Source: a virus
Strand: one strand, 5' to 3'
Virus record (IMG/VR): IMGVR_UViG_3300037245_000802
Span: 1-50,986 of that record
Length of the DNA: 50,986 nt
In this document: one piece after another, positions 4,412 through 50,621 of the stretch
Layout: each line of letters opens with the position of its first letter
How positions within the stretch are numbered: position 1 is the first letter of the stretch
The notes under the pieces: model-generated
What the model saw: the letters and a program-made list of their open reading frames with translations, nothing else
Told to the model about the DNA's origin: nothing
The model's database searches: none
Program-made: the position numbers and the translations under genes

Positions 4412-4443
4412 GAGTGACCTACTCAACTATGAATAGGTCACTC
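4412..4443. terminator. Bidirectional terminator between convergent genes
   Basis: Perfect 10-bp inverted repeat GAGTGACCTA/TAGGTCACTC (4412-4421, 4434-4443) with a 12-nt loop, flanked by short T/A tracts on both sides. The left arm overlaps the last codons of uvsW, which converges from the right. Confidence 0.75.
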
Positions 4444-5879
4444 TCAAAAATATCACACCCTTCCATGAGGTAACGTTCAACCACATCAAACCCTTCAATG
4501 TTGTAATGTCTTAAACGAGTGTCAGCGTGTTTGTCCAAGAACTTGACATTATCACAAATATCCCAAACCAACGCACCATTCTTCTTGTCAGCGTGAAGCC
4601 TCAAGGCACGTCCTATTGATTGTAATACTCTAATCTTACTCTTGAAAGGAGAGGCTAGGATTAGATTTCTCAAAGATTTGATATTGATTCCCTGTTGGAA
4701 AATTCCATAGGTAGCAATGAGCAAGACGTTCTCCTTGGTGTCCATGTACTTACGCCAAGCCTCGCGGTCTTTTGCCTTGTTCTTACCAGACAGAAATTCA
4801 ACCTCATACCCAGCCAGTTCTGGGGATTCCTTGAGAATCCTTTTCAGTACCTCTCCCTCATCCTCAACCTTGCCAACCAATAGGAGCACGGAACCATCTG
4901 ACTCTGCTATGATGTTACGGATAACTCCCATACGGAATGGGTTATTGAACACATAATCCTTAACCTCATTATAAGGTAACTTTGCCTTTGGTTGAGTCTC
5001 ATAGGAGATGTGAATCATGTTAATTTTACACTTAGCCACATATCCAAGTTCAGCCAATTCAACACTTCCATATTCCCTTAATACAGGACCCAAATATGAC
5101 TTGACCTGTAGACACTCCAAATCTTGGTGGGGCATGGTTCCGGTAAATCCAAATCTCCAACGAGCATTGGGTGCCTGTTGCAGTAGTTCACCGAGAACTT
5201 TGGCTTTAGCTCCGTGAACCTCATCGACAATGACCGATTCCATTCTGGTCATGTGTTCCGGTACGTTCATAAGGGATTGCCATGTGCTAATGACCAGTGG
5301 GTTATTCCACTCTCTCCAATCATCTCCGACACGTCCTACATAGTTCATGTTGATTCCATAGTCCTGCATATCATCATAGAACTGTGACACCAAGCCGATA
5401 GACGGTACAACAATGATACCGTTCTTAATTTTGACTTGATTGAATAGGGCACGTTGCACATATGAAATCATGAGTGACTTACCAGAAGCGGTAGCCGAAC
5501 GGATAATTCCCTTAGATATCTTCAGGCATGTACTAATACAGTCATCCTGATAGTCATACGGCTTGAATAAGAGGTCTTGTTCGTAATTAGGTGTGATGCC
5601 CTGAAAAAGACCCTTAACATCATTAGAGATGATATATGGAAGCCCAGACCACTCTGTTTTGTGGAACTTGATGAGGTCTAATACCAAACCAAAGGGGATG
5701 GTGCGGTCTTCGGCGTTAAGCAACGAGATTTTGCCATCCCACTGCCCCGATTTCCACAGCGGCATAAACTTATAGCCTTCAACATAATGATTGAAGTGTT
5801 CTTTTACGGCACGTAAATAATCCCAGTTCTCCGTATCAATCCTGACATGGAGTGGGTCGTGTAATTCAAAATTTACCAC
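4419..5879 (-). CDS. uvsW: UvsW-like superfamily 2 helicase
   Basis: 486 aa, close to T4 UvsW. Visible SF2 motifs: a Q-motif-like KPYDYQDD near residue 107, Walker A A-T-A-S-G-K-S (129-135), Walker B D-E-V-H (219-222), motif III T-G-T near 247, and motif VI I-G-R-A-L-R near 430. UvsW unwinds R-loops and branched DNA, shutting off origin-primed replication late and driving recombination-dependent replication. It forms an operon with uvsY. The C-terminus ends ESDLFIVE, which resembles the C-terminal tails of small proteins elsewhere in the window. Confidence 0.9.
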   Translation of the reverse strand: MVNFELHDPLHVRIDTENWDYLRAVKEHFNHYVEGYKFMPLWKSGQWDGKISLLNAEDRTIPFGLVLDLIKFHKTEWSGLPYIISNDVKGLFQGITPNYEQDLLFKPYDYQDDCISTCLKISKGIIRSATASGKSLMISYVQRALFNQVKIKNGIIVVPSIGLVSQFYDDMQDYGINMNYVGRVGDDWREWNNPLVISTWQSLMNVPEHMTRMESVIVDEVHGAKAKVLGELLQQAPNARWRFGFTGTMPHQDLECLQVKSYLGPVLREYGSVELAELGYVAKCKINMIHISYETQPKAKLPYNEVKDYVFNNPFRMGVIRNIIAESDGSVLLLVGKVEDEGEVLKRILKESPELAGYEVEFLSGKNKAKDREAWRKYMDTKENVLLIATYGIFQQGINIKSLRNLILASPFKSKIRVLQSIGRALRLHADKKNGALVWDICDNVKFLDKHADTRLRHYNIEGFDVVERYLMEGCDIFESDLFIVE

Positions 5880-6374: not shown

Positions 6375-6526
6375 TTGCCATCCTTTTCATAGAGGTATCC
6401 CTTAATTTCCGATACCACCTTGTGTCCTTTTGCTGTGAGAGCATATTTGTGGTTACCACCCATATCAAGTGCAGTGGTACGTATATGCAACATCAGTTCT
6501 CTCAGCAACCTTTCTTCTTCGCTCAT
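6371..6526 (-). CDS. Small protein upstream of uvsY
   Basis: 51 aa, MSEEERLLRE start, then a central NHKYALTAKGHKVVSEIKGYLYE segment that reads like one helix-turn-helix or winged-helix unit. Coupled by ATGA overlaps to the genes on both sides. It occupies the position of small unnamed genes next to T4 uvsY. Function unknown. Confidence 0.65.
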   Translation of the reverse strand: MSEEERLLRELMLHIRTTALDMGGNHKYALTAKGHKVVSEIKGYLYEKDGK

Positions 6527-6816
6527 ATTTTGAATATGTCCTCGTGACCCTTAAAAATGTCGTTAAACTGGTCACCAAATTTGGCCACAACTTCCAAGCT
6601 AATTTCTTCTTTTTTGTCAGGTGGAATGTTCAATGGGCTGGTGTCTAGCCTACGTCTAATGCAGTCAATTAGCACCTTATCGGACATACGGATGTTGCCA
6701 ACACCTAAATACCTTTTAACAGACGCACGAATACCACCGTCCGTGGAAACAGAAATATTGTTTCGCACGACATATGATAGTGCGTGAAAGAGTACACTGG
6801 GGTCATCATTTGTCAT
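6523..6816 (-). CDS. Hypothetical protein with C-terminal EDIFKI tail
   Basis: 97 aa, first gene of the leftward uvsY-uvsW operon. Mixed alpha/beta composition, with an Arg/Lys-rich middle. It ends H-E-D-I-F-K-I, matching the C-terminal tail shared by a dozen small proteins at 43-51 kb, and like them its last codon plus stop (ATATGA) supplies the next start codon. The ATG falls exactly at the predicted transcription start of the palindromic promoter, so the message may be leaderless. Confidence 0.65.
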   Translation of the reverse strand: MTNDDPSVLFHALSYVVRNNISVSTDGGIRASVKRYLGVGNIRMSDKVLIDCIRRRLDTSPLNIPPDKKEEISLEVVAKFGDQFNDIFKGHEDIFKI

Positions 6817-14721: not shown

Positions 14722-17499
14722 TTGACACAAACCAACATTTTTTATGACACGAAGCGTTCTCGTATTCATCTATGGGAAACATTAGACGGTGAACGTTTTT
14801 ATGACCTAATTGACTGGGTTCCATATGTCTATGTACCAGATGAAAATGGCGAAACAACAACCATTGATGGAGTTCCCGTAAGACTAAGGGAATTCGATAC
14901 CTACCAAGACTACAACGAATACCAAAAAACATTCAAAAACCAAATCTATGAAAATGAAGTTCCCAAGGAAATACAATTTCTGACAGAGAAATATCACGTT
15001 ATCCCAGATGAAGAAATTGAACCGCCAACGCTGAAAATTTATGCGCTTGATATTGAGGTTCACAGTGAGCGTGGATTCCCCAAAGTCGTTGATTCTGCTT
15101 TTCCAGTGGTGCTCATTAACGTGCGAGAATTCGGTGAGGGTGGTATCAATATCACTTGGGGATGTAAACCATACACCGGGGATAACCCAGAGGGAATTGA
15201 GTACATCTACTGCCAGAATGAAGCTGAGTTGCTGAGGAGATTCTTCGATTGGTGGTACAAACATGCCCCTGATGTTGTCACTGGTTGGAACATCAGCCCC
15301 AGCAGTAAAATGAACAAGCGTGGTGGATTCGACCTTGGTTACCTCGTAAATCGCTCAAAAATCATCTTTGGTCTGAGGGCTGATGAGTATAAGAAGCTGT
15401 CACCAATTGGCATTGTTAGGTGTTGGGAAGACCAAGAAAGCGGTGCACTAAACGTGGACATCGCGGGTGTATCAGTTATTGATTACTATGCACTGTACAA
15501 ATGGTACACACCTGAGAACCCAGAAAACTATAAATTGGATACGATTTCCAGACACGAGCTTGGTCTTGGGAAAGTTGATTTCTCACAGTACGAAGACCTT
15601 AGAGCATTGTTCCATATGGACTGGAACCTGTATGTAGACTATAATGCTGTTGACTGTAGACTTATTGAGCAAATGGAAGACAAGTTGGGTTACATAAAAC
15701 TTGCACAGTCTCTTACACTCATCTGTCGCTGCAAAATGGAGAACTATACAGCATCTACTCACTTGGTGGAAGGATTAATGCTAACCCACTTCAGGCGTAA
15801 TGGGTTATGTGCTCCAAGAATGGTTGGTGGTGACCAAGAGTGGTTCCCTGCGGCATTTGTCAAACCCCCTCAGAAGGGTCAGCATGATTGGATTGCAGAC
15901 CTTGATATCAAGTCTTCATACCCAACGGCCATTATCACCCTGAACATGTCTCCTGAGACATACTACGGGCGTATGATATCGTATCAGAACAACTTTGGTT
16001 CATGGGTTGACACCATTGGTGGGCGTGGTGACATGGACATTGAACGTGTTGCTAGATTGGAGAATCCCATCACAGAATTTGTGACAGACCGAAAGCTACC
16101 ACCATTCAAGTTACTGAAGGACACAGGCATCTCCGTGATTGAAGGTAACAAGTTAGACAAGTTCAACGAAGCCTTGGAGCGCGGGTTGGTGTGTGTAGCT
16201 CCGTGTGGCTCAATGTTCATGCAGAATAAGAAAGGTGCGTTCGCTCAGGTCGTACAGGAAACTTATGCAAAGCGTCAGGTCATCAACGGATTGAAGAAAG
16301 ACTCCAAGCTGAAGGCGAAGAGAGCAAGGAATCCCGAAAAGGTTCACGAGCACACAGTACAGGCTGACAAGCACCATGCGTTACAGTTGGCACTGAAAAT
16401 CATCATCAACTCAGCCTATGGTGTTACGGGCGTTCCGTATTCACGTTACTTCAATGTTAACGTAGCTGAGGCGGTCACTTCATGTGGTCGAAAAGCTATC
16501 ATTGATGGAGAAAAGTTCGTTAACCGATATTTTCAGGATAATATATGGCAGAACGATGAGGTTATGGAAATCCTTGACGTTCTGAAGGATGGAACTGAGG
16601 TTACGTTAAACACAGAACTGGATGATGACTTTGTGGCATATATTGATACTGACTCCGTTTTCATTCGTATAGGTCAGTTCCTAGATAAAGTGTTGTCCAA
16701 TGACTGGAAGGCTCTGGATGAAGAACTCATCATTGAGAACATCTTGAAGTTGTCTGAGATTATAGAAATGTATGTCAATGATTGTGCATACGAAGAGACA
16801 CAGGTTGGTGCATACAATTCCAGAATGGAAAGGGATGAGTTCTCTATCGTCTTTAAGCAAGAAATTGTATGTAAATCAGCACTGTTTATACAGAAGAAAA
16901 AGTACGGATATCATGTGGTAAATGAAGAAGGTGTGCCTACGGATGAGATTGCTGTAACTGGTCTTGAAATTATCCGTTCAGAAACACCATCTGCATTCAA
17001 AGAAGCATTGAGAGATATGCTTGGTATGATTCTACGAAATGCAGATGATACAGCTATCTATGATACGTATCACGAATACATGAAATCAGCTAGAGATGCG
17101 TATCCCGAAGAGATTTCGGAGAACAAGGGTGTCAAGGTATTGAGCAAATATATCATTGATGGTGAGCCTATTAAGGGCACCCCGTACCACGTAAAAGCGG
17201 TAGCTGCGTACCACAAACTGTTGAAAGAACTGGAACTTGAGGACTTCTATCCTGAAATTGAGGAAGACACAAAGAATAAATTAGTCTACGTTAAGCCTAA
17301 TCCATACAATGTTGCGTGTGTGATGTATGACAGGTGGCCGAAAGAATTCACCGAGGTTGGCGTTGAGCCTGATTATGACCGAATGATTGAGAAGTTTCTG
17401 ACCAACAAACTCAAGATGTTATTAGAACCAATGAACAGGGAGCACATTTTGGAGCAAAACCAAGCATTTAACTTATTTTTTGGAGGCAGTCAACAATGA
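14722..17499 (+). CDS. Family-B DNA polymerase (gp43-like)
   Basis: 925 aa, near the T4 gp43 length. The exonuclease domain has D-I-E (110-112), an ExoII region with G-W-N and F-D, and Y-N-A-V-D (ExoIII). The polymerase core has motif A D-I-K-S-S-Y-P (about 394), motif B K-I-I-I-N-S-A-Y-G (about 558) and motif C Y-I-D-T-D-S (about 640). It is the replicative, proofreading polymerase. The start is TTG 14722: an in-frame stop lies just upstream and no earlier ATG exists. The end reads F-N-L-F-F-G-G, like clamp-binding tails of related polymerases. ATGA overlap with the next gene. Confidence 0.95.
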   Translation: MTQTNIFYDTKRSRIHLWETLDGERFYDLIDWVPYVYVPDENGETTTIDGVPVRLREFDTYQDYNEYQKTFKNQIYENEVPKEIQFLTEKYHVIPDEEIEPPTLKIYALDIEVHSERGFPKVVDSAFPVVLINVREFGEGGINITWGCKPYTGDNPEGIEYIYCQNEAELLRRFFDWWYKHAPDVVTGWNISPSSKMNKRGGFDLGYLVNRSKIIFGLRADEYKKLSPIGIVRCWEDQESGALNVDIAGVSVIDYYALYKWYTPENPENYKLDTISRHELGLGKVDFSQYEDLRALFHMDWNLYVDYNAVDCRLIEQMEDKLGYIKLAQSLTLICRCKMENYTASTHLVEGLMLTHFRRNGLCAPRMVGGDQEWFPAAFVKPPQKGQHDWIADLDIKSSYPTAIITLNMSPETYYGRMISYQNNFGSWVDTIGGRGDMDIERVARLENPITEFVTDRKLPPFKLLKDTGISVIEGNKLDKFNEALERGLVCVAPCGSMFMQNKKGAFAQVVQETYAKRQVINGLKKDSKLKAKRARNPEKVHEHTVQADKHHALQLALKIIINSAYGVTGVPYSRYFNVNVAEAVTSCGRKAIIDGEKFVNRYFQDNIWQNDEVMEILDVLKDGTEVTLNTELDDDFVAYIDTDSVFIRIGQFLDKVLSNDWKALDEELIIENILKLSEIIEMYVNDCAYEETQVGAYNSRMERDEFSIVFKQEIVCKSALFIQKKKYGYHVVNEEGVPTDEIAVTGLEIIRSETPSAFKEALRDMLGMILRNADDTAIYDTYHEYMKSARDAYPEEISENKGVKVLSKYIIDGEPIKGTPYHVKAVAAYHKLLKELELEDFYPEIEEDTKNKLVYVKPNPYNVACVMYDRWPKEFTEVGVEPDYDRMIEKFLTNKLKMLLEPMNREHILEQNQAFNLFFGGSQQ

Positions 17500-20507: not shown

Positions 20508-20509
20508 TC

Positions 20510-25005: not shown

Positions 25006-25822
25006 ATTAAGCACAAGATATGGTGAAATGTATATGGTTGCAGTTGCGAAACTGTCAAGTTATATTCGTGACCACGACATCAAGGCTCTGGTCATTGGTA
25101 TCAGTGGTGGGGTAGATTCGGCACTGGTAGCGGCTCTTGCCAAATCAGCAACAGAGTATCCCTACAAAGATATCCCCGTCATTGGTCGCTCTATTACAAT
25201 TGAGAGCAACAAGCCAGAAGAAGTTGCACGTGCCAAGGCGATTGGTGAAGCGTTCTGTAATGACTTCGCAGAGCTTGACCTGACAAAAGCCTACTGTGAT
25301 TTGATTGGTCAGATGGATATGGCTGGTGATGGTTGTACTGACATGGAAGCCAAGATTGCTCTAGGTAACATCAAAGCGAGAATTCGCATGACACAACTGT
25401 ACCACCTTGCAGGTATCAACAAGGGGCTGGTATTGAGCACCGACAACTACACTGAACTGCTACTCGGTTTCTGGACTCTCCACGGTGATGTTGGTGACTA
25501 CGGTATGGTTCAGAACCTCTGGAAGACTGAGGTATATGGGTTGACCAAATTCATTGCCGACATATACCGGAAACTTGACAACGGTGCACCGGCTGAAGCA
25601 CTGGAAAAATGTATTGATGCAGTTCCAACAGATGGTTTGGGAATTACTGATTCAGACCTTGACCAACTGGGAGCTTCCAGTTATAATGAGGTAGACAAAA
25701 TTCTCATTGACTACCTGAATTTTGTTGACAGGATAGACCATCCTGTTATTGACAGGTACGAGAGAACCCACTTTAAGCGGGAAAATCCGGTCAATATCCC
25801 ACGAAAGGAGTTAATACCATGA
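24998..25822 (+). CDS. nadE: NH3-dependent NAD synthetase
   Basis: 274 aa, matching E. coli NadE in length. The PP-loop I-S-G-G-V-D-S (35-41) and later S-T-D-N-Y-T-E-L-L-L-G-F-W-T-L-H-G-D are the ATP and deamido-NAD binding stretches. No glutaminase domain, so ammonia is the nitrogen source. It performs the last step to NAD+. Overlaps nadD and pncA by a few bases. Confidence 0.93.
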   Translation: MYKLSTRYGEMYMVAVAKLSSYIRDHDIKALVIGISGGVDSALVAALAKSATEYPYKDIPVIGRSITIESNKPEEVARAKAIGEAFCNDFAELDLTKAYCDLIGQMDMAGDGCTDMEAKIALGNIKARIRMTQLYHLAGINKGLVLSTDNYTELLLGFWTLHGDVGDYGMVQNLWKTEVYGLTKFIADIYRKLDNGAPAEALEKCIDAVPTDGLGITDSDLDQLGASSYNEVDKILIDYLNFVDRIDHPVIDRYERTHFKRENPVNIPRKELIP

Positions 25823-38869: not shown

Positions 38870-39082
38870 TTATTTTAGTCCTTCCTTCCAATTGTCATCA
38901 CCGTTTTTCCATAACATGATTGCTTCTTGTTCTTTTGCTTCAAGATTGAAGTCATCGTTTGCGTCAATAGCTCTCATGATTTCAGTGTAAAGATACTCTT
39001 TGGATGCGCCTTGTGCGGTATCCATGTCAGTTTCAAATCTCTTCAGGAGTTTGCTTTCATTAAGGTACTGTAATAGTCTCAT
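38870..39082 (-). CDS. Tagged small protein (MRLLQYLNE)
   Basis: 70 aa. Tag MRLLQYLNE then Ser. The body is acidic and helical. Starts within the last bases of the upstream ParB-like gene. Unknown function. Confidence 0.75.
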   Translation of the reverse strand: MRLLQYLNESKLLKRFETDMDTAQGASKEYLYTEIMRAIDANDDFNLEAKEQEAIMLWKNGDDNWKEGLK

Positions 39083-39792
39083 GCATTCCTCCTATTACCA
39101 ACAGCATCACCAAATGCCTTGGCTAAGTCGAGTAGCTGGTTGATAGGTAGGTCTATCTTCAGCACTTTGATTTTCATATTAGGGTCAATCAACATGCCCG
39201 ACAGCCATCTGTGGTGACCGTCAATGATATGGTCATCACTACTGACCACAAAAGCGTGTGTTGATATGAACTTCCTTGACCCCTTGATTCCCTCACGAAC
39301 AGTGTTCCTCATCGACTTGTCAAAGTAAATCTGTTTCTGTATGGGCTTCAGCATCTTAATGGTGTCGGTGGTCATGGTTGCCTTAACCACGTCATCACTC
39401 TTGGCACCACCGTCATGTTTGGGTTCACCGTCTTCCAGCCAATTTTTTGCCTTCTTGCCTTTAAGAAACTCAGGGAAGAGGTTGGCTTGGTCTGTATCAG
39501 GCGCAAAGGGAGCATTTATATCAATCTCCCCATTCTTCAGGTGGTTCAGGAGAGTCTTGATATCCTTGTCATCAATTACTGGCATGTCCTTGCGCTTGGT
39601 GTAACCCAAGCTGGCTTGATGTTTTGCCATCTCAAACTGCTTATCGAAGTCAGGTAGCTCTTGGTATAGGTCAACCCCTTTCTCATCCATGAGCTTCCGT
39701 GTAAATGCTCGTGCATCATCTAGTGAGGTATTTATGATTTCCATAGTACCCGGTACCTGACCGCTTTCTATTAAATATTTTTGTAATCTCAT
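39079..39792 (-). CDS. Tagged ParB-like protein
   Basis: 237 aa. Tag MRLQKYLIE then Ser. Near the end, V-V-S-S-D-D-H-I-I-D-G-H-H-R-W (residues 182-196) is the ParB/sulfiredoxin-like catalytic motif (D-G-H-x-R), which in this fold binds nucleotides or cuts DNA. With the tag, this would be a packaged protein able to act on nucleic acid or nucleotides right after ejection. Confidence 0.75.
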   Translation of the reverse strand: MRLQKYLIESGQVPGTMEIINTSLDDARAFTRKLMDEKGVDLYQELPDFDKQFEMAKHQASLGYTKRKDMPVIDDKDIKTLLNHLKNGEIDINAPFAPDTDQANLFPEFLKGKKAKNWLEDGEPKHDGGAKSDDVVKATMTTDTIKMLKPIQKQIYFDKSMRNTVREGIKGSRKFISTHAFVVSSDDHIIDGHHRWLSGMLIDPNMKIKVLKIDLPINQLLDLAKAFGDAVGNRRNA

Positions 39793-40280
39793 TTGCCGAA
39801 CCTCCTTCTCAGAGTCTTAATGTACCCTTTAACCTCTATGGGGTTCAGGTCATACTTTTTTAGCCACTTATAATCAAAATCTAATAATTCGTCGATACGG
39901 TCACTATTTAAAGCTCTCATGTCATGGTCACCAATTACCAGCAGATTGTATAGGGAATCAGAGTTCATGTTGGTCATCCTGTTATCAACATCGAACATCA
40001 CGATTTGTTCGGCACCTGAGCCACGTTGCCAGTATAAATCCCAGCTAAAATATCCAAGGTCGTTCTTTAGCTCAGGTGACTGCAACATATGTCTGTGCAT
40101 GATATCACCAGAGGCAAAGTAAATGTTCTCTTCCTCCAAATCCATGATGATTCTGAATCCATACCCAACATCAGCCAATTCCTTTATCTCTTTCTTTGAG
40201 GGATTCTTGAATATATCATAGATTTCTCCAAAGTTAACTGATGACAGATATTTCTCATTTAGGTATCTTTTTAATCTCAT
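39789..40280 (-). CDS. Tagged protein (MRLKRYLNE)
   Basis: 163 aa. ATG 40280 chosen to place tag MRLKRYLNE at the N-terminus. The body has many aromatic and acidic residues, no named domain. ATGA overlap with the ParB-like gene. Confidence 0.75.
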   Translation of the reverse strand: MRLKRYLNEKYLSSVNFGEIYDIFKNPSKKEIKELADVGYGFRIIMDLEEENIYFASGDIMHRHMLQSPELKNDLGYFSWDLYWQRGSGAEQIVMFDVDNRMTNMNSDSLYNLLVIGDHDMRALNSDRIDELLDFDYKWLKKYDLNPIEVKGYIKTLRRRFGK

Positions 40281-41098
40281 AGCTTGTCTAGTAACCTCCA
40301 CATATCTTTGGAAGTGGGTATTTTTTGTAGCTTTCTTGTGAGCAAGCCTTCACGATGCATACGTTTTAGCATGTGTTTCATATACTCATCATATTCATTG
40401 TTCAAAATAGATTTACGAATAACACCAAGAAATGGGGATTTTAGTTGCACGATATCCGTCCAAGTAATATCATTCCATGTTTTTTTGTTGTCTCTTTTTA
40501 TCTGTTTGATTGAGTGTATCTGAGCATCAATTTCTATAAAAGTTTGATTGACGTTACCGTGACCTTGTTTCATTACATCCCATTCATGACCCACGTGTTC
40601 AGCCGCTCTATTCAACAATTTGGTAATATTCTTATCATGTAATGAATCATTCAGCCAATGAGAGAGTTCATGATATATTGAACCCTTGATGGCAGACACA
40701 GACAATTCCTCTACGAATCTTTTCATCTTAGTGCCAACCATGCCCTCTACTCTGTCCATATCAAAATTAGCACTTCTCAATATATCAACTTGTTGGGCGT
40801 TAAATGAAAAATGGATAACATTTTCCGCTGGGCTATAGTAGTTCCCCTTATCATCAACCGTAAGGTATATGTCTATGGGATTGACAGCATGTGCCTCTTT
40901 TGCTTGTTTAGATTTAAGCTCACCACTGGATATACTATCACTTTTCGAGTTGGTTCTCCCTCGAACCAGCATGTCAAACTTGTGATAATCACCTTTCAAC
41001 CAATACTTGTGTATGTGCTTGAAAATCTTATTATAGACCAAATCAACATCGGCATTAATGTTGAATGTCTTCTCTGTCAGGTAACGTTGAAGTCTCAT
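40277..41098 (-). CDS. Tagged HExxH (zincin-like) protein
   Basis: 273 aa. Tag MRLQRYLTE then Lys. H143-E144-L-S-H147 within I-Y-H-E-L-S-H-W-L is a zinc metalloprotease signature in a predicted helix, with E-I-D-A-Q further on as a possible third ligand. Inferred to be a packaged protease that would act on a host protein, or on the capsid interior. ATGA overlap with the next gene. Confidence 0.75.
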   Translation of the reverse strand: MRLQRYLTEKTFNINADVDLVYNKIFKHIHKYWLKGDYHKFDMLVRGRTNSKSDSISSGELKSKQAKEAHAVNPIDIYLTVDDKGNYYSPAENVIHFSFNAQQVDILRSANFDMDRVEGMVGTKMKRFVEELSVSAIKGSIYHELSHWLNDSLHDKNITKLLNRAAEHVGHEWDVMKQGHGNVNQTFIEIDAQIHSIKQIKRDNKKTWNDITWTDIVQLKSPFLGVIRKSILNNEYDEYMKHMLKRMHREGLLTRKLQKIPTSKDMWRLLDKL

Positions 41099-42719: not shown

Positions 42720-43052
42720 ATGACTATCACATTTTGGAAACACATATACGACCGACAAAGGTGTTTGTACTGGAAGGTTCTAATTCCCCAGTGGATATGC
42801 ACACTGATGACCATTTTTGATGTGGATGAATGGCTCTGGGTGCAAGGATTTTTGTGGGGAGGTGGGTTTCTTTTTATGTACATGTTTTTGTCATGCTTGG
42901 TTATAGTGTTAATGTGTCTTTCATTATATTCTATGCGTGTGGTTTCTAAACACCAAAATCAAATGTTACAAGAGATACGTTTGCGGTATGAACGAGAAAT
43001 GCAAGAGATACGTGACCGCGCAAGGGGTTATACAAGAGGGAACGGCCAATGA
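42720..43052 (+). CDS. Membrane protein with basic coiled tail
   Basis: 110 aa. Two hydrophobic helices (about 20-35 and 45-68) and a charged C-terminal helix rich in Arg/Glu. Starts one base after the previous stop. Unknown function. Confidence 0.65.
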   Translation: MTITFWKHIYDRQRCLYWKVLIPQWICTLMTIFDVDEWLWVQGFLWGGGFLFMYMFLSCLVIVLMCLSLYSMRVVSKHQNQMLQEIRLRYEREMQEIRDRARGYTRGNGQ

Positions 43053-43303
43053 AATACTATCCAGTAGGACTCAAGTGGGAAACGAAGGGCTACCATTGTA
43101 CCATCTTAGGTACTGATGAATGTACAGACGGGGTTCATTACTGGTTATCTCACAGAGTAGAATGGAACCCGAAGTATGGGTATTCTACTAAGCACACAAA
43201 AAAGATGAGCACAAGGAAACTTGCCAAAGAATTCAAACGATTAGGAATTACCCAGCCAGTGGAAGATAAAAATCACTTCGAAGAGGGATTGTTTGAGATA
43301 TGA
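43049..43303 (+). CDS. Small protein with C-terminal FEEGLFEI tail
   Basis: 84 aa, basic and strand-rich. It ends H-F-E-E-G-L-F-E-I, the first of a dozen shared acidic-Leu-Phe tails in this region. ATGA overlaps at both ends couple it to its neighbours. Function unknown. Confidence 0.7.
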   Translation: MKYYPVGLKWETKGYHCTILGTDECTDGVHYWLSHRVEWNPKYGYSTKHTKKMSTRKLAKEFKRLGITQPVEDKNHFEEGLFEI

Positions 43304-43485
43304 GTAACTGCATATGTGCAAACCCATTGATACTCACAGATATAGACAAGGGTGACCATATCTATTATGTTTGCCGTGATTGTGGGAAGACGTACAGATA
43401 CCACCACACCGACCCCCTTGTGGCTGGTGTTGTTGCATTTGAGCGAAGTAAGGTAAAACTGGATGATAATTTATTTCGTATTTAA
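43300..43485 (+). CDS. Small zinc ribbon with C-terminal LDDNLFRI tail
   Basis: 61 aa. C-x-C early and C-R-D-C later form a zinc ribbon, followed by a linker and the tail L-D-D-N-L-F-R-I. A zinc ribbon with a docking tail suggests a small nucleic-acid or polymerase-associated factor (inference). Confidence 0.7.
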   Translation: MSNCICANPLILTDIDKGDHIYYVCRDCGKTYRYHHTDPLVAGVVAFERSKVKLDDNLFRI

Positions 43486-43498
43486 TGTACGATTATGC

Positions 43499-43527
43499 TT
43501 GTATTGTTGACGTAACCTTGATATGAT
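43499..43527 (+). promoter_or_regulatory. Early promoter with GTAACCTTGA box
   Basis: TTGTAT (43499-43504), 17-nt spacer, TATGAT (43522-43527). The spacer ends GTAACCTTGA, matching the box at 20743 and 45232. In the leader, TTATC/GATAA (43552-43556, 43562-43566) puts AAGGA in a hairpin loop. Confidence 0.65.
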
Positions 43528-43568
43528 GTAGTTGTAAGGCGGGATAAACAATTATCAAGGAGATAATA

Positions 43569-43886
43569 ATGAAATTCGAAAGAGCTAACTTTGATTACAG
43601 CGGCGGGTATCTTCACTACGAAGGCAAGTTTATTGCACGTTTCAAGCACGTTGCAAGCAACAAGCCGACCTTCTTGACCTTCCTGATTAAGAATTTCACC
43701 CAAGAAGAGTACTTCGAAGCAACTTCTGGTAATGGAATCGACAATACTCCTGTGAAGGTTCTTGAAAGCAAAGGTTACGTTGCCGCTCACATCAGGAAGA
43801 TGCTGAAGCAAGAAGGTTACAGTGTTGACCGCGCAGGTTATGATGCATATCTTGATGACTGTGTTGCTAAGTACGCAAACAAATAA
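43569..43886 (+). CDS. Small basic hypothetical protein
   Basis: 105 aa, aromatic and basic, AAGGAG upstream. First gene after its promoter. No tail and no tag. Unknown function. Confidence 0.7.
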   Translation: MKFERANFDYSGGYLHYEGKFIARFKHVASNKPTFLTFLIKNFTQEEYFEATSGNGIDNTPVKVLESKGYVAAHIRKMLKQEGYSVDRAGYDAYLDDCVAKYANK

Positions 43887-43897
43887 GGAGAAACACC

Positions 43898-44278
43898 ATG
43901 TGTAAATTTTCTGATATTCATAATGAAGCCGTAAACGCTGGTCTGGAAGCAGGTGAAGCCCATAAACCAGTACCAATGATAGTTGGAAGTCCTTCGACCC
44001 TGTTTGGTAATGACATTGACCCAAATAAACCCGTGTATCATGTTGATTCGGGTGTCTGTGGGTTTGCTTGGGTGAAAATTCGCCCCGCACGTGGCAAGTT
44101 TGTAACGTGGTTGAAGAGTAATAACATTGGTCGCAGGGATGATTATGCGGGTGGTTACCGTATCCCATGCTTCGAGTTTGGTCAGTCTCTTGAGAAAAAA
44201 GAGCGTTATGCTAGTGCATATGCCAGAGTTCTCAAGACGCATGGCATCAATGCTCATTCTGATTCTAGGATGGATTAA
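43898..44278 (+). CDS. Hypothetical protein
   Basis: 126 aa. Contains V-D-S-G-V-C-G-F-A-W-V and K-F-V-T-W-L-K stretches, seen in a phage family of unknown function. AAGGAG before the ATG. Stop overlaps the next ATG. Confidence 0.7.
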   Translation: MCKFSDIHNEAVNAGLEAGEAHKPVPMIVGSPSTLFGNDIDPNKPVYHVDSGVCGFAWVKIRPARGKFVTWLKSNNIGRRDDYAGGYRIPCFEFGQSLEKKERYASAYARVLKTHGINAHSDSRMD

Positions 44279-44526
44279 TGAGCTACCGTAAAGGCGATTT
44301 ATTCGTACACAAAGCCAAGGGTACCATTGCCGTTGTCATAAAGGTTGACAATGAGAAGGGTACCTTTGACTTTAAATACAGTAACCCCAACGAGAATGGT
44401 TGCACGTGGGATATACTGACCGACAACCCCTTGGATGAGATTAAACATGCTGTTGATGAGGGATTTGTGGTCATGTACCGACCATACACCAGCTTTCTTG
44501 ACGATAGCTTGTTTGAGGTAGACTGA
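44278..44526 (+). CDS. Small beta-rich protein with C-terminal DDSLFEV tail
   Basis: 82 aa. The start S-Y-R-K-G-D-L-F-V-H looks like a small SH3/KOW-type barrel. Ends F-L-D-D-S-L-F-E-V-D, one of the shared tails. Coupled by overlaps on both sides. Confidence 0.65.
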   Translation: MSYRKGDLFVHKAKGTIAVVIKVDNEKGTFDFKYSNPNENGCTWDILTDNPLDEIKHAVDEGFVVMYRPYTSFLDDSLFEVD

Positions 44527-44741
44527 TGAATAATAATGAACAGAACATAGCCATATCCATATCAGGTTTGATGACACTAAATATAACCAAAGAGAATGCT
44601 TACGACCTGATAAAAGAGAGTGATTATTGTGTTGGGTGTGATGTGGAACTTGTATGGCACCACCTTGACGATATCCTGAATGGCAAGGATGTATCTATTC
44701 AATTGCCAACAGACTTCCCAGAGGACTTGTTCAAGCTATGA
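44526..44741 (+). CDS. Small protein with C-terminal PEDLFKL tail
   Basis: 71 aa, acidic, helical. Ends D-F-P-E-D-L-F-K-L, shared tail. Overlaps the neighbours by the usual start-stop overlaps. Confidence 0.65.
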   Translation: MNNNEQNIAISISGLMTLNITKENAYDLIKESDYCVGCDVELVWHHLDDILNGKDVSIQLPTDFPEDLFKL

Positions 44742-44974
44742 GGTATCAGGTCGGGGATAAATTTGTTGGTGTCTGCTCCGATGGTTCGCCTTTTGTTGGG
44801 CATGTAGAAAAGGTGAGCCTTCCAAACAGAAAATACTTTATTGTGTGGAGGTATGAAGATGCTGAAAACCGCCAGAGTTGGTATAGTGAGGCATGGGTGG
44901 TTGACTACACAAAAAGAATGGAATATGAACCACTAAAAATTGTAACATTTGATGAGGAGCTATTCACAATATGA
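44738..44974 (+). CDS. Small barrel-like protein with C-terminal DEELFTI tail
   Basis: 78 aa. The start Y-Q-V-G-D-K-F-V-G-V is the strand pattern of an SH3-like barrel. Ends T-F-D-E-E-L-F-T-I, shared tail. Confidence 0.65.
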   Translation: MRYQVGDKFVGVCSDGSPFVGHVEKVSLPNRKYFIVWRYEDAENRQSWYSEAWVVDYTKRMEYEPLKIVTFDEELFTI

Positions 44975-45141
44975 AAGGAAGCAAATCACTGCGACAATTT
45001 ATAAACAGGATGCGTAGGAAGTATGGGAAGAAGAACGGCAACCTTCCTAGACATTTCTTTGACCATCCTATCTTTGAGGTGGAAGATGAAACAAACAAAA
45101 ACAACTACAAGCGACACAAAGAAAAGAACAAGCGAGACTGA
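44971..45141 (+). CDS. Small basic protein
   Basis: 56 aa, strongly basic (many Lys and Arg). ATGA overlap with the previous gene. The next gene starts inside it. Confidence 0.55.
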   Translation: MKGSKSLRQFINRMRRKYGKKNGNLPRHFFDHPIFEVEDETNKNNYKRHKEKNKRD

Positions 45142-45235
45142 CAGCCGATACGGTGAGCCATGTACCAGATGTGCTACCCCATTGGTAGTTCGTGAAGGTC
45201 AAACTATTTGTCCTTCCTGTGACGTTTTTTATTGA
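45086..45235 (+). CDS. Small zinc-ribbon protein
   Basis: 49 aa. C-x2-C twice (C-T-R-C and C-P-S-C) with a basic N-terminus. GAGGTGG before ATG 45086 supports this start over an upstream in-frame one. It overlaps the basic protein by 56 bases in another frame. Confidence 0.6.
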   Translation: MKQTKTTTSDTKKRTSETDSRYGEPCTRCATPLVVREGQTICPSCDVFY

Positions 45236-45260
45236 CAGGTTGAAGTAACCTTGGTAAGAT
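45232..45260 (+). promoter_or_regulatory. Early promoter with GTAACCTTGG box
   Basis: TTGACA (45232-45237), 17-nt spacer ending TGAAGTAACCTTGG, TAAGAT (45255-45260). Nearly identical to the spacer of the promoter at 20743. GATTA/TAATC follows at the predicted start. Confidence 0.75.
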
Positions 45261-45295
45261 GATTATGTAATCAACACCAACCAAGGAGAAACACA

Positions 45296-45670
45296 ATGAG
45301 TAACGATTTTCCGAGATGGGAAGACCTGAGCGAGAGAGAGCAACTTCTGTCCATTTACAGTGACATGCACAAGGATGTTTATGGTTGCCGCCGCTATCCC
45401 AGTGAGATGACGCTTGAAGAACTCAAGCAAGCGTTGGTTCGGTTGGAAGAGGATGTGGTAGAAGAGATTGCACACCAGAAAGAGCGGGAAGCCAGAGCCA
45501 TTAAGGACTTCGAAGCTCTTATCTCTAACACCATCAAGAATGGTGCCATTGACCGTCAGAACGCAATCGAATGGTTGCGTCAGGCTGAAGCCGATGAGTG
45601 GTACGATGATGGTTACTTTGAATACTCCAATGGGCTTCCTTATGGGTATCTTGCAAAAGAGGCGGCATAA
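45296..45670 (+). CDS. Hypothetical acidic helical protein
   Basis: 124 aa, helical, acidic, with a Tyr-rich end. AAGGAG upstream. First gene after the promoter. Stop overlaps the next start. Unknown function. Confidence 0.7.
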   Translation: MSNDFPRWEDLSEREQLLSIYSDMHKDVYGCRRYPSEMTLEELKQALVRLEEDVVEEIAHQKEREARAIKDFEALISNTIKNGAIDRQNAIEWLRQAEADEWYDDGYFEYSNGLPYGYLAKEAA

Positions 45671-45933
45671 TGCTAGAAGTTGGTAAGACATATAGGGTTT
45701 ACCCTGATACTTGGGATGAACCCTATTTGTTTGAAATCATCAAATATGTTCCCCAAACACACCAATTTGATAGTGGGCATTTCACAGTGAAATGTACCTC
45801 AATTATTGGTGATTTTGATTCAGTTGAACTTGACTATGCTGAGACAGTTATGTTGGCTTGGCAAGAAGAGGGATTCATTCAAGAGATTCCCCCAGTTGGC
45901 AAAGTTTTTGATGAGGATTTATTCGAGCTATGA
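45670..45933 (+). CDS. Small barrel-like protein with C-terminal DEDLFEL tail
   Basis: 87 aa. The start L-E-V-G-K-T-Y-R-V-Y suggests an SH3-like barrel. Ends V-F-D-E-D-L-F-E-L, shared tail. ATGA overlap with the next gene. Confidence 0.65.
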   Translation: MLEVGKTYRVYPDTWDEPYLFEIIKYVPQTHQFDSGHFTVKCTSIIGDFDSVELDYAETVMLAWQEEGFIQEIPPVGKVFDEDLFEL

Positions 45934-46169
45934 GTTATCATTTTTGGAAATCTGTTTTACGGGGCGTGATAATGGCAGATATTATCGGCGTTATTGGTTT
46001 ATGTCTACTCCTATTCGGTGATGATATTGTAGGGATACAATACAAAATGATAGCAATTTTGTATGTTGTCTTAACCCTTTGTACCTTTTATTCATATGCC
46101 GTTTATAAATTTACACGTCAAGCAGCGCGGGTGCGGAATCTCAATCGGGTGCACCCACCAAGGCGTTGA
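45930..46169 (+). CDS. Small membrane protein
   Basis: 79 aa. Two hydrophobic helices (about 12-30 and 38-58) and a basic tail. Unknown function. Confidence 0.65.
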   Translation: MSYHFWKSVLRGVIMADIIGVIGLCLLLFGDDIVGIQYKMIAILYVVLTLCTFYSYAVYKFTRQAARVRNLNRVHPPRR

Positions 46170-46222
46170 TATGGAAAGACCAAATCTTTTCACCAATTGT
46201 TTACCATATATTGTTATAGTCA

Positions 46223-46230
46223 TATAAATA
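46223..46230 (+). promoter_or_regulatory. T4-type late promoter box TATAAATA, leaderless
   Basis: Exact TATAAATA; the predicted start point 46236 is the A of the next ATG. No SD is visible upstream of that ATG. Confidence 0.7.
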
Positions 46231-46235
46231 CAAGT

Positions 46236-46766
46236 ATGAAATTGGACAACTACATGAAAGAAATGAAAGAAAACTTTGTTCCGTCAAATGAGATGGTTGA
46301 CTTCTTTGAAGAACGAACGAAGAGGCACATAGACTTTGTTGGTCAGAATCTCCAAACAATGATGGATATCTACCCAGCTATGCATCATGAACTATCAGAG
46401 AGAATCACTTCACATGACTTATCAAAATATGGTGCTGAAGAGTTTATCCCATACGTATATCTGACATGGTATCACAAGATGAGAAATGAGGGCGTGGCCT
46501 ACGAGTATCCATCACAGGACGTTGAAGATGCCATAAGGGGAGCAACACAACACCACATACACAACAACAGGCATCATCCTGAATTTCATGCTAACCCACA
46601 CCACATGACCGAAGTTGATATTATTGAGATGGTCTGTGACTGGGAAGCAATGTCTATGGAACTGGGTGGGAACACTGAAGAGTGGGCTAATAAGAATATA
46701 GGTAAGTGGAAGTTCGACAAGGAACATGTAAAACTTATCTATATGTTCATTGACGATTTATCCTGA
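46236..46766 (+). CDS. Tagged DUF5662-like protein
   Basis: 176 aa from ATG 46236. Begins MKLDNYMKE, close to the T4 internal-protein tag form. The body has R-I-T-S-H-D-L-S-K-Y, Q-H-H-I-H-N-N-R-H-H-P-E-F, and D-I-I-E-M-V-C-D-W, the pattern of DUF5662, a metal-binding HD-like family common in phages. Activity unknown, but the many His and Asp residues suggest a hydrolase. Confidence 0.75.
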   Translation: MKLDNYMKEMKENFVPSNEMVDFFEERTKRHIDFVGQNLQTMMDIYPAMHHELSERITSHDLSKYGAEEFIPYVYLTWYHKMRNEGVAYEYPSQDVEDAIRGATQHHIHNNRHHPEFHANPHHMTEVDIIEMVCDWEAMSMELGGNTEEWANKNIGKWKFDKEHVKLIYMFIDDLS

Positions 46767-46790
46767 AATACTAAAAACAAACAAATTACC

Positions 46791-46845
46791 TTGACATATG
46801 AACTCAAATACCCTATTATCTATAAAAGGATAATGGGGTATTTTT
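46791..46845 (+). promoter_or_regulatory. Early promoter overlapping a terminator-like hairpin
   Basis: TTGACA (46791-46796), 17-nt spacer, TATTAT (46814-46819). ACCCTATTATC/GATAATGGGGT (46810-46820, 46829-46839) plus ATTTTT forms a hairpin whose left arm holds the -10; it may end the upstream message. Confidence 0.65.
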
Positions 46846-46873
46846 ATGACATATCATGGAATTGGAGGACAAA

Positions 46874-47083
46874 ATGGCTATAGGATGGAATGAAACTATT
46901 AACTTTGGGGTGGGTAAAGAGTTTAAGGATAGAGCAAAACGCAGGAGAATGAATGGGGTTAAAGAGTCTAATCCTGCCTATAAATACAAGTTTTCTAAAG
47001 AGGAAATACAAGGGCTTAAAGAGCTTATGGATGAGCCGAGTGAACAAGAAACCCATTTCGACGGAGAGGATTTTACAATATGA
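46874..47083 (+). CDS. Small basic protein with C-terminal DGEDFTI tail
   Basis: 69 aa. TTGGAGGAC lies 3-9 nt before ATG 46874, so this start is preferred to 46856. Basic middle (K-R-R-R). Ends H-F-D-G-E-D-F-T-I, a divergent copy of the shared tail. Confidence 0.65.
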   Translation: MAIGWNETINFGVGKEFKDRAKRRRMNGVKESNPAYKYKFSKEEIQGLKELMDEPSEQETHFDGEDFTI

Positions 47084-47346
47084 GCAGACCAGCTATTACG
47101 GGTGCAGAACTTGACGATATCATTAGTGATGTTCACAAAATGCTGTACAAGAGGATTGAACAGCACGGCGATGGCGCATTCTCAAGCTCACATGAAATAT
47201 TGGGCATCTTGAATGAGGAGATGCTTGAGTATTCACTAGAGGTGTGCGGTAACGACAGAGAAGGACAAATTAGGGAGCTAATAGATGTTGCGGTGGGCGC
47301 AATCTTTGGTGCGGCTTCTCTCAAATCAGGAAAAGCTGAGTGGTAA
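47080..47346 (+). CDS. MazG-like protein
   Basis: 88 aa. The pattern H-E-I-L-G-I-L-N-E-E-M-L-E and L-I-D-V-A-V-G-A-I-F fits the all-alpha nucleotide pyrophosphohydrolase (MazG-like) family, where the E-E and D bind metal. Could sanitise NTPs. ATGA overlap with the previous gene. Confidence 0.6.
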   Translation: MSRPAITGAELDDIISDVHKMLYKRIEQHGDGAFSSSHEILGILNEEMLEYSLEVCGNDREGQIRELIDVAVGAIFGAASLKSGKAEW

Positions 47347-48362
47347 GTAAAGGTTTGACAAATGACCTATTCATTAACCACAAGGTTTGGGCTAAGTTCT
47401 CTGATGAAGAGATGGACGCATACAGGCAAGCAGTGTTCACCTACTACAGAGAAGCTGGCTTCCCCCTGTTCCCAACAGACAGAGCGTACAGGGAAAAGGA
47501 ATACAAGAAGCTGATGAAGTACGACTTCACCCAATGCGTTGACCATGATAGGCGTACAATCAACCAGACGATGCATGGATTGGCTCTGGCATGGTCGTAC
47601 ATGCCCCACTCGTGGAACGTGGTCTGTAACGGCAAACTGACCCCTTGGCAGGTGTTTCATGACGATGACCTGTTGATGAAGTGTATCATCAAGCGTACCA
47701 CGTTTGGCGCAAATATGTCAGATAATGGATTGCGTAAGATAATGAAGCTGTTCACGGGTACACAGTGTGTAAGTAACTTCAGACCGACAGCGGCGGCGGG
47801 TGTATATGACTGGTTCTGTCAGCCTGACAATGTGGTGTGGGATATGTCATGTGGGTTTGGTGGGCGGTTACTGGGTGCTCATATGGCGGGTGTCAAGTAT
47901 ATTGGCACTGACCCCTCAACACCTACATTCAATGGCCTATGCCAGATGAATGAGGATTTCGACCTGAACGGGGAGATACACCAGTGTGGCAGTGAGGTGT
48001 TTCTGCCAGATAAGAACAGTCTGGATTTCTGTTTCACATCACCGCCATATTTCGATACAGAGAAATATACAGATGAGGAAACACAGAGCTACATGGCATT
48101 CCCCAGTAAGGATGCTTGGCTTGATGGCTTCCTGCTGAAGACATTTGAAAACTGTCACTACGGGCTGAAGAAGGGCAAGTTAATGGCTGTTAATGTAGCT
48201 AACACGAAACACTTTCCAGACTTCGAACAGAAGACAATAGACTGTGGTACGGATGCGGGGTTCAACCTCATAAGCACGTGGAACCTAGCACTCTCAAACC
48301 CAACAATGAAAAGCACCAAACAGGTATACAAATATGAGCCAATCTTTATCTTCCAGAAATAA
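47340..48362 (+). CDS. DNA methyltransferase-like protein
   Basis: 340 aa from GTG 47340. F-R-P-T-A-A (147-152), D-M-S-C-G-F-G-G-R (168-176, SAM binding) and T-S-P-P-Y (233-237) are motifs I and IV of amino-methyltransferases. The F-R-P-T-A-A segment marks a phage family of DNA methylase relatives. It overlaps the next gene by 29 bases, suggesting they act together, perhaps modifying phage DNA against restriction. Confidence 0.8.
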   Translation: MVSKGLTNDLFINHKVWAKFSDEEMDAYRQAVFTYYREAGFPLFPTDRAYREKEYKKLMKYDFTQCVDHDRRTINQTMHGLALAWSYMPHSWNVVCNGKLTPWQVFHDDDLLMKCIIKRTTFGANMSDNGLRKIMKLFTGTQCVSNFRPTAAAGVYDWFCQPDNVVWDMSCGFGGRLLGAHMAGVKYIGTDPSTPTFNGLCQMNEDFDLNGEIHQCGSEVFLPDKNSLDFCFTSPPYFDTEKYTDEETQSYMAFPSKDAWLDGFLLKTFENCHYGLKKGKLMAVNVANTKHFPDFEQKTIDCGTDAGFNLISTWNLALSNPTMKSTKQVYKYEPIFIFQK

Positions 48363-49305
48363 TTTGCCGATGCTGGATGACTTACAGCAAGCGGTTGACC
48401 TAAAGGATATCACCAGCACGATTACGTTGGATGATAAGGCAACCATCGACATGTATTATGGTGATGAGATTTACCCGTACTACATGAACTGGGCGCATAA
48501 TGTCATGGCTACCCATTGGCAAGTACGATTCGCTGAGATAGACTTTGGTGAGGATACTGTGTTGTTCGCATATAAGAACGTTTCATTCTTTGCGGTGAAG
48601 TATTATCGACTCCTGTTCTACCCCAAGAGCATCAATGGCATCAGGGCTAACGAGGATGCCGTGTACGAGGAGATAATCAAGCATGAGAAGGTGACTGAGG
48701 TTGTCACCAAAGAGCCTCATGGGAAGCCATTTGACCACGATTTCTATATCAATGCGAGTGATAAGTTCAAGGAGATTGATATAGGCAAATATCGCTCAAA
48801 GCACCGTATCAACATCCTGAAGAAATGCCCTGAATTTGTCGTGCGTAAGGCTGTCACGGGTGACAAAAATAACATCAAGAAGTTGCTAGACCATTGGAAA
48901 GAATCCAAGGGTAAGGATTACAGTGGTGCGGTGTTCAAGGGCTTCCTGAAATACTATGAGACATGGGTGGAGTGTGGTGATATAGAAGTCATTGTCATGA
49001 CGTACCAAGAACTTGTCATAGGCTTGTACGTGTACGTCAACACCACTAACAACAACTATTACCAGATTATCAATGTTGCACTCAACAACCAAAACTTTGA
49101 AATGAGTGACCAGTTATATCTTTTTGGGGGGGTATTCAGGAAGATTCTCTCTGATACCTCACAGATATCCCTGTACTTTACACTTGAGATGTTACGTGAT
49201 AAGGTGGACACAATCACGTTTGCGGGTGGCAGGATACCGAAGCTGGTTGCATACAAGAAACGAGTATATAAGGACGCTATCCCTTACTATAGGAGAAAGC
49301 TATGA
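48334..49305 (+). CDS. GNAT-like partner of the methyltransferase
   Basis: 323 aa. The C-terminal half (about residues 170-310) has the strand-helix layout of a GNAT acyltransferase fold, with a V-I-G-L-Y-V-Y strand in the middle. No clear acyl-CoA Q/R-x-x-G-x-G loop is seen. A paired modifying enzyme that decorates bases is a speculation. AGGT lies before the ATG. Confidence 0.6.
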   Translation: MSQSLSSRNNLPMLDDLQQAVDLKDITSTITLDDKATIDMYYGDEIYPYYMNWAHNVMATHWQVRFAEIDFGEDTVLFAYKNVSFFAVKYYRLLFYPKSINGIRANEDAVYEEIIKHEKVTEVVTKEPHGKPFDHDFYINASDKFKEIDIGKYRSKHRINILKKCPEFVVRKAVTGDKNNIKKLLDHWKESKGKDYSGAVFKGFLKYYETWVECGDIEVIVMTYQELVIGLYVYVNTTNNNYYQIINVALNNQNFEMSDQLYLFGGVFRKILSDTSQISLYFTLEMLRDKVDTITFAGGRIPKLVAYKKRVYKDAIPYYRRKL

Positions 49306-49469
49306 ATGACGATGAAGCGGCGGCTAAATGGATGAAAATGGTCATGGGCACGGTGCGTCAAAACAAAGACAAATATGGCGAATGGACTCTTGATATAGAA
49401 ACCGGACCCCTCTGGGATACCTCTGATGAATCAGAAGACCATTTCGAGGATGATTTGTTTGAAATATGA
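49302..49469 (+). CDS. Small protein with C-terminal EDDLFEI tail
   Basis: 55 aa, acidic. AGGAGAAAG upstream. Ends H-F-E-D-D-L-F-E-I, shared tail; its last codon and stop supply the next ATG. Confidence 0.65.
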   Translation: MNDDEAAAKWMKMVMGTVRQNKDKYGEWTLDIETGPLWDTSDESEDHFEDDLFEI

Positions 49470-49756
49470 AATTACACGGCAAAATATTTGTGCCGGTACC
49501 GGGCAATGATGATTACTATTGGTGCATTTTAACACAAACACTGTTCTCTACAAAAAAGACAAATGGTGTACCACTAAAAGAGTTGCGGGTTCTCCACGCC
49601 AACAAGTATAACGATTTTAAGGCTGGTTACCAGATGTTCAATAAACGTCTGAAGAACTATGCCACAGTTAACTGGCTCAAGACCCTGAATCATGGAGATG
49701 CTATAGCACTGGTGTTTGATGAAAATAACTTTGATGAGGATTTATTTGAGATATGA
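49466..49756 (+). CDS. Small protein with C-terminal DEDLFEI tail
   Basis: 96 aa, beta-rich and basic in its first two thirds. Ends N-F-D-E-D-L-F-E-I, shared tail. The 27 tail-coding bases match those of the gene at 50442 exactly. Confidence 0.65.
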   Translation: MKLHGKIFVPVPGNDDYYWCILTQTLFSTKKTNGVPLKELRVLHANKYNDFKAGYQMFNKRLKNYATVNWLKTLNHGDAIALVFDENNFDEDLFEI

Positions 49757-49926
49757 AGATTGAATATAACATAATATCTTCAACACACAGTAACATACTA
49801 ATAGATAAGGTTACCTGTGCAATGTTGAGTGGCTGGTTGCCGCAAGGTGGTGCATTTTTAGACCCCGCAGAAAATTGGGATAAATGGAAACAGACAATGA
49901 TTAGGGAAACTGATGAGGAAACTTAA
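49753..49926 (+). CDS. Small hypothetical protein
   Basis: 57 aa, no shared tail. ATGA overlap with the gene before. Trp-rich second half (W-L-P, W-D-K-W). Unknown function. Confidence 0.6.
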   Translation: MKIEYNIISSTHSNILIDKVTCAMLSGWLPQGGAFLDPAENWDKWKQTMIRETDEET

Positions 49927-50173
49927 TTTCAAGATAGGTGATAAGCTCTACTGTAAAGAGAAGCGACAGATAATGGGCGTGGACTATGGTGAGAAATACA
50001 CTATCAAGCAATTTAAGATGACATGGTTTGAGGGTATGGTGGATGACTACCAAGAACTGGGTGTACTGTTCGAGGAAACAGGAAAGAACATCTATCCCCT
50101 AGAATGCTTTGCTGGACGGATGCCAATGAAGGCTGACCCAGTAAGGCTGGATGAGGAGTTGTTCAAGATATGA
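49913..50173 (+). CDS. Small barrel-like protein with C-terminal DEELFKI tail
   Basis: 86 aa. The start N-F-K-I-G-D-K-L-Y-C looks like an SH3-type strand pair. Ends R-L-D-E-E-L-F-K-I, shared tail. Starts inside the previous gene. Confidence 0.65.
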   Translation: MRKLNFKIGDKLYCKEKRQIMGVDYGEKYTIKQFKMTWFEGMVDDYQELGVLFEETGKNIYPLECFAGRMPMKADPVRLDEELFKI

Positions 50174-50445
50174 AGAAATTTGAATATCGTGACCAAGTGA
50201 AACTGACCGACCATAGAGCATGGAAAGATTTCTATGATGACAAGTATATTGGTTTTGATGAGAACTGGAAACGCTTTTGGGATGAGAATGTAGACAGGCA
50301 ATTCACTATCCTTGGTGAAGGTGATGACGGTGGTGTGCTGTTGGGTGGGCTACCAGATTACGTGGAACATGACATGAACTTTTACTCAGATGAGCTTGAG
50401 GGCTATGTTGGGGTATTCAGTGACAATAGGATGTTCAAGATATGA
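50170..50445 (+). CDS. Small protein with C-terminal NRMFKI tail
   Basis: 91 aa, acidic and aromatic. Ends F-S-D-N-R-M-F-K-I, the most divergent of the tails (Met for Leu). ATGA overlap. Confidence 0.65.
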   Translation: MKKFEYRDQVKLTDHRAWKDFYDDKYIGFDENWKRFWDENVDRQFTILGEGDDGGVLLGGLPDYVEHDMNFYSDELEGYVGVFSDNRMFKI

Positions 50446-50621
50446 GTTTACTTAGAACCCTGATTGACAATCTACCCACTGATTTAAGTGACAACATGTT
50501 GGATATGACAGTCGATGAAGTTGGGGAGCTATTGGATAGGGTTGTGGATAAAGCCAAACAACAAGAGAAAGAACGCCTTGACCACATGGCAGAGTTTGAT
50601 GAGGATTTATTTGAGATATGA
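50442..50621 (+). CDS. Small helical protein with C-terminal DEDLFEI tail
   Basis: 59 aa, helical, acidic. Ends E-F-D-E-D-L-F-E-I, shared tail. ATGA overlaps at both ends. Confidence 0.65.
   Translation: MSLLRTLIDNLPTDLSDNMLDMTVDEVGELLDRVVDKAKQQEKERLDHMAEFDEDLFEI

Follow-up and report, generated by a model that had tools for sequence, protein, structure and literature searches.

Why do twelve small, otherwise dissimilar proteins of an uncultured phage end in nearly the same eight residues? The question is raised by the viral contig IMGVR_UViG_3300037245_000802, analysed here over its whole stretch of 50,986 bases (the window), which is a fragment of a T4-like phage genome with genes for a gp43-type DNA polymerase, gp41, and UvsW. 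Between positions 43049 and 50621, twelve small open reading frames (ORFs) terminate in variants of F-D-E-D-L-F-E-I. A preceding sequence-only reading had named these ends and had proposed that their carriers dock on a common partner, perhaps the sliding clamp. All twelve ORF ends proved to be as claimed, those at 47083 and 50445 being weak variants and that at 44526 carrying an additional D:

43049..43303, plus strand: protein of 84 amino acids, tail HFEEGLFEI
43300..43485, plus strand: Cys-rich (zinc-ribbon-like) protein of 61 amino acids, tail KLDDNLFRI; uncoupled from any downstream gene
44278..44526, plus strand: protein of 82 amino acids, tail FLDDSLFEVD, with one extra D
44526..44741, plus strand: protein of 71 amino acids, tail DFPEDLFKL
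44738..44974, plus strand: small beta-rich protein of 78 amino acids, tail TFDEELFTI
45670..45933, plus strand: protein of 87 amino acids, tail VFDEDLFEL
46856..47083, plus strand: protein of 75 amino acids, weak variant tail HFDGEDFTI, with D in place of L
49302..49469, plus strand: protein of 55 amino acids, tail HFEDDLFEI
49466..49756, plus strand: protein of 96 amino acids, tail NFDEDLFEI
49913..50173, plus strand: protein of 86 amino acids, tail RLDEELFKI
50170..50445, plus strand: protein of 91 amino acids, weak variant tail FSDNRMFKI
50442..50621, plus strand: protein of 59 amino acids, tail EFDEDLFEI

Two further ends that had been named were found as described (GHEDIFKI and FESDLFIVE). 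The polymerase end FNLFFGG, which had been grouped with them, is present in the sequence but represents a different, T4-type motif, so that the polymerase serves as a comparison point and is no member of the tail set:

4419..5879, minus strand: UvsW-type helicase (486 amino acids), C-terminus IFESDLFIVE
6523..6816, minus strand: protein of 97 amino acids between UvsW and gp41 (the latter at 7066-8487 of the window), tail GHEDIFKI
14722..17499, plus strand: gp43-type DNA polymerase, C-terminus AFNLFFGGSQQ, a T4-type clamp-interacting peptide

The enrichment of the tail is real and far beyond chance. When the regular expression [DENSGKP][LIM]F.[ILVM] was placed at the C-terminus and the expectation was taken from its internal rate, 10 of the 99 non-overlapping window ORFs matched against 0.08 expected (P 1.5e-18), and control stretches from T4 and Pelagibacter phage HTVC008M gave no match in 190 ORFs. 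A tail profile run over all 575 window ORFs of at least 30 amino acids placed the twelve tails in a separate top group (motif scores 17.8-25.8), with UvsW next at 9.0; because the score model was built from these same tails, this shows separation and not independent significance, and the independent support comes from relatives. These were found by polymerase searches and tail-pattern searches. ORFs were called mechanically, and several contigs are only fragments. The contigs are as follows, with their tail counts and the P values for C-terminal enrichment, which assume independent genes, whereas duplication makes genes partly related:

G001: 235,765 bases, polymerase 74% identical to that of the window; 20 tails (P 9e-13)
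G002: 51 kb; 31 tails (P 9e-59)
G003 and G004: 62.5 and 56.7 kb, from the same sample; 8 and 30 tails (P 1e-16 and 2e-36)
G013: 161.6 kb, polymerase 46% identical; 8 tails (P 6e-7)
G027: 142 kb, polymerase 68% identical; one clear tail only
G033: outgroup T4-like contig; no tail when examined

The window itself has 13 tails when UvsW is included, and its polymerase is about 28% identical to those of cyanophages and Pelagibacter phages. A metagenome-assembled genome (MAG) deposited as 'Thermoplasmata archaeon SG225.bin14' (JAEHCK01; L168-L178) contains nine contigs with about 23 tails, mostly of the LPEELFEI type; two of the nine encode a polymerase which is 45% identical, and these T4-like phage contigs are probably misbinned. 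Outside the window, about 120 further tails were thus found in five related phage contigs and the phage-like contigs of the MAG, isolated single pattern matches in other contigs, at or near background, being excluded from the counts. The exact pattern FDEDLF[EK]I-stop had no match in viral contigs, among which the window's own record is perhaps not included; looser patterns retrieved the relatives. As far as searched, the tail belongs to this lineage, and its usage differs greatly inside the lineage, as G027 illustrates despite its similar polymerase. No earlier account of this tail came up in literature searches.

The consensus comprises eight residues, [F/L]-[D/P/E]-x-[D/E]-L-F-x-[I/L/V]-COOH. 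Among the 102 tails tabulated from the first five contigs, F is invariant (102/102), L is found in 96, and I, L, or V is terminal in 100, the preceding positions being mostly D or E. Such tails might be a by-product of translation coupling, if their codons hold a Shine-Dalgarno sequence (GAGGA or GAGGT) and an ATATGA stop/start overlap and selection acts on the DNA and not on the peptide. A downstream start lies within -4 to +18 of 76 of the 110 tails (coupled); GAG accounts for 69% of the Glu codons in these and for 50% in the 34 uncoupled ones, and Ile is encoded mainly by ATA, which the ATATGA overlap supplies. In the window tails, the E codon is GAG in 12 of 13 cases against a background of 0.40, a strong bias which fits an embedded Shine-Dalgarno sequence. 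However, the 34 uncoupled tails, which include genes ending with TAA before gaps, retain the peptide almost equally well (mean motif score 18.5 versus 19.9 in coupled tails). Codons also vary: the 13 window tails use TTA (4), TTG (5), and CTA (2) for Leu and TTT (7) and TTC (6) for Phe, and across phages up to six Leu and two Phe codons occur, with the position of the Shine-Dalgarno sequence shifting while the peptide stays constant. The peptide is therefore the conserved entity, as had been claimed from the variable L-F codons, and not merely an embedded ribosome-binding site. The latter is a real secondary constraint on the tails; as an explanation of them, coupling is already largely refuted and scarcely credible.

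That the bodies differ while the tail is common is borne out by grouping with BLAST: 102 proteins fall into 75 body groups at E 1e-3, and 110 into 61 at E<0.05, counts which are upper estimates of unrelatedness. Because BLAST overlooks distant homology, many small proteins of the xVGDxV type may be one diverged, duplicated family, and it could be argued that all carriers descend from one divergent family of small beta-barrels in which the tail is the best-conserved part. Many bodies do start with xVGDxV and have a small-beta-barrel look, there are some paralogue clusters, and duplication has surely multiplied many barrel-like carriers. As a full account, however, common descent is contradicted by the tails on UvsW, a DUF932 protein, a P-loop ATPase, the Cys-rich ribbon, and other non-barrels, and we give it very little weight. 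The barrel model, moreover, is of low confidence: the AlphaFold2 model of the 44738..44974 protein (mean pLDDT, predicted local distance difference test, 60) has strands at residues 8-54, an uncertain linker at 58-66, and a one-turn tail helix, and a fold search with it gave no significant match, so that the SH3-like fold is a guess. Pfam and PHROGs searches with ten small window proteins revealed no convincing family.

Where orthologues could be recognised, they retain the tail. The C-termini of UvsW relatives are MFESSLFGEQQ..., IYENTLFDKK, and VFSNDLSLFTIE. The DUF932 proteins at G001 194082 and G003 45604 are 42% identical and both carry the tail, which is also kept between the P-loop ATPases at G001 186205 and G003 36633 (31% identical). 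The same probably holds for the 6523..6816 protein, the probable orthologue of which (G022 22123-22485) ends with CEDLFKL; tblastn between the two was not significant, and the orthology was read by visual inspection from a segment which they have in common and from their matching location. The body of the 43049..43303 protein is homologous to G001 54552-54848 (E 4e-10, 37% identity), and that protein ends with FDSGLFVV. Against cultured phages, the DUF932 protein gave one weak match only, and tblastn with the P-loop ATPase gave none in 50,697 records. Proline makes up 12.2% of the eight residues preceding the tail versus 3.3% in the bodies. Even on unrelated bodies, tails from one genome resemble each other more than tails from different genomes do (permutation P about 0.001), which fits a genome-specific partner, each set matching the partner of its own phage; embedded ribosome-binding sites and undetected paralogy could contribute to this likeness. 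Short ORFs which repeat the UvsW N-terminus (G001 17955-18137, minus strand) are possibly the remnant of a second copy.

Unrelated bodies, the proline-rich linker, the orthologues, and the genome-wise co-variation all speak for a modular docking peptide, and we consider it very probable that the tails dock on a common partner at all. This part of the sequence-only reading stands; the clamp is a plausible candidate for that partner. According to the mechanism which we propose, small, fast-diversifying proteins with unrelated bodies would carry a flexible proline-rich linker followed by [F/L]xx[D/E]-L-F-x-[I/L/V]-COOH, and the tail would insert into a single pocket of a common partner, so that every body would be brought to one location. 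The likeliest partner would be the phage's own gp45-type clamp, and the proteins assembled there might serve as an extensive 'tool belt' for phage DNA under replication. With the clamp included, this statement falls somewhat short of an even chance.

A gp45-type clamp is encoded in the lineage. G001 4680-5483 matches phrog_223, 'DNA polymerase processivity factor' (3.8e-8), and the best Foldseek matches of its model (mean pLDDT 68; predicted template modelling score, pTM, 0.69) are to T4 gp45 (3u61, 6drt, 1czd). The Pfam profile PF02916 (gp45) failed on it, where PHROGs and fold comparison succeeded, and tblastn against the 50,697 cultured-phage records gave no match. The hydrophobic-acidic C-termini of T4 gp43, gp55, and gp33 bind gp45 and are interchangeable (PMC2988020), and the T4 clamp peptide SLDFLF occupies a pocket between clamp domains (PMC12746103). 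RB69 gp43 ends with SLFDMFDF, of which DMFDF-COOH aligns with DLFEI, and one tail of the lineage is DMFDL. The identifiable carriers (UvsW, the DUF932 protein, the P-loop ATPase, and neighbours of gp41, gp46, gp47, and UvsX) point to functions in DNA replication and recombination. Like the T4-family peptide, the tail is short and acidic-hydrophobic, forms the very C-terminus of unrelated proteins, and follows a flexible linker.

Other observations weigh against the clamp. Its gene is not in the window; from synteny judged by eye (the membrane protein at 932 versus G001 9758) it would be expected a few kb past the left end. The first hydrophobic residue is at L-4 (100 of the 110 tails) and never at L-3 (0/110), which is the T4 spacing seen in the phi-x-x-phi-F ends of T4 (LDFLF), RB69 (LFDMF), HTVC008M (LEDFF), and G013 (IDSIF). 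The lineage's polymerases end differently from the tails, in the T4 manner (FNLFFGG, FNFFFGG, FNAFFG, IDSIFG, LSAFFG), and no such tail was found on gp55 of G001, G003, G013, and G027, the ends of which are Lys-rich or otherwise different. Dozens of small proteins are concerned here, versus three proteins in T4. As G027 is nearly tail-free, the tail is no core replication feature. Since the spacing differs and polymerase and gp55 are without the tail, we do not class it with the T4 clamp motif; it probably acts in a similar way, and its partner is inferred. The partner might instead be another phage protein of replication, recombination, or transcription, or it might come from the host, RNA polymerase being one example; the strict spacing, unlike that of the same phages' polymerase peptide, the tail-free gp55, and bodies too varied to indicate one process would fit this. 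However, no specific partner stands out, and in the T4 family it is the clamp which is known to bind several acidic-hydrophobic C-termini (PMC2988020), so that we regard a non-clamp partner as rather unlikely, if worth keeping in view.

The gp55 late sigma factors of the lineage (G001 173854-174486, G003 24898-25389, G027 15429-15890) have lysine-rich ends without the T4 clamp-binding C-terminus, so that late transcription may couple to replication differently. At window 932-1610, a membrane protein and a small lipoprotein-like ORF which overlaps it look like a spanin pair of the Rz/Rz1 kind.

Other known C-terminal peptides fit less well. The bacterial beta-clamp motif is Q-phi-x-[LM]-[FL] (PMC11139829); like the tail, it has L-F after an acidic residue and is often C-terminal, but the tail is without the hydrophobic second position and has an additional x-[ILV]-COOH, and Gln occurs in the first four positions of only one of the 110 tails. 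The tip of single-stranded DNA-binding protein (SSB) and the C-terminus of T4 gp32 likewise end in hydrophobic residues after a stretch of acidic ones, by which partners are docked. The tail might bind SSB-binding pockets of repair enzymes: the E. coli tip MDFDDDIPF contains F-D-D-D-I, which resembles F-D-E-D-L, and T4 gp32 ends with LDDLLNDL. Yet there one tail serves many partners and here many proteins presumably serve one, the Pro-Phe end is missing, I, L, or V is terminal with an invariant F third from the end, and the lineage's own gp32 (G001) ends with TDALLAELSDM, which makes an SSB-type tip very improbable. Little more can be said for a degradation signal by which a host protease would clear the carriers late in infection. 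Hydrophobic C-terminal residues are frequent in bacterial degrons and the carriers are small accessory proteins, but known C-degrons, in our judgement, need less specificity than an eight-residue pattern which includes a stretch of acidic residues and an internal F that never varies, and UvsW carries the tail too; we think this most unlikely.

At least nine window genes (1909-3512, 12421-13434, 38870-41098, and others) begin with MRLxxYLxE-like peptides, and none of them is tailed. We take these N-termini to resemble the T4 capsid targeting sequence (CTS). T4 internal proteins are diverse and have only that targeting signal in common (PMC3012670). The CTS, like the tail, is a single conserved address peptide on diverse, fast-evolving small phage proteins, but it is N-terminal and serves packaging. 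Of the 190 proteins with either label in the contigs searched, 112 bear the tail alone and 78 a CTS-like N-terminus alone, and none combines the two (Fisher P 8e-4). It is conceivable, and we suggest it tentatively, that the lineage uses two-label sorting, with an N-terminal label for head packaging and a new C-terminal label through which interchangeable small proteins, dozens of them, would gather at a single hub inside the cell, via a pocket not known from T4.

The gp41 helicase gene of G001 (19050-22590) is interrupted by an insertion with an intein- or homing-endonuclease-like sequence, and the polymerase reading frames of L091 and L093 are split too. tRNA and Rfam searches of the window gave no matches.

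Being present on up to a quarter of a contig's small genes, the tail offers a way into phage 'dark matter': with a single peptide as bait, dozens of unrelated proteins without an assigned function could be traced to a shared site of action. It suggests that phages recruit fast-evolving accessory proteins by modular short linear motifs, in the way of cellular PIP boxes.

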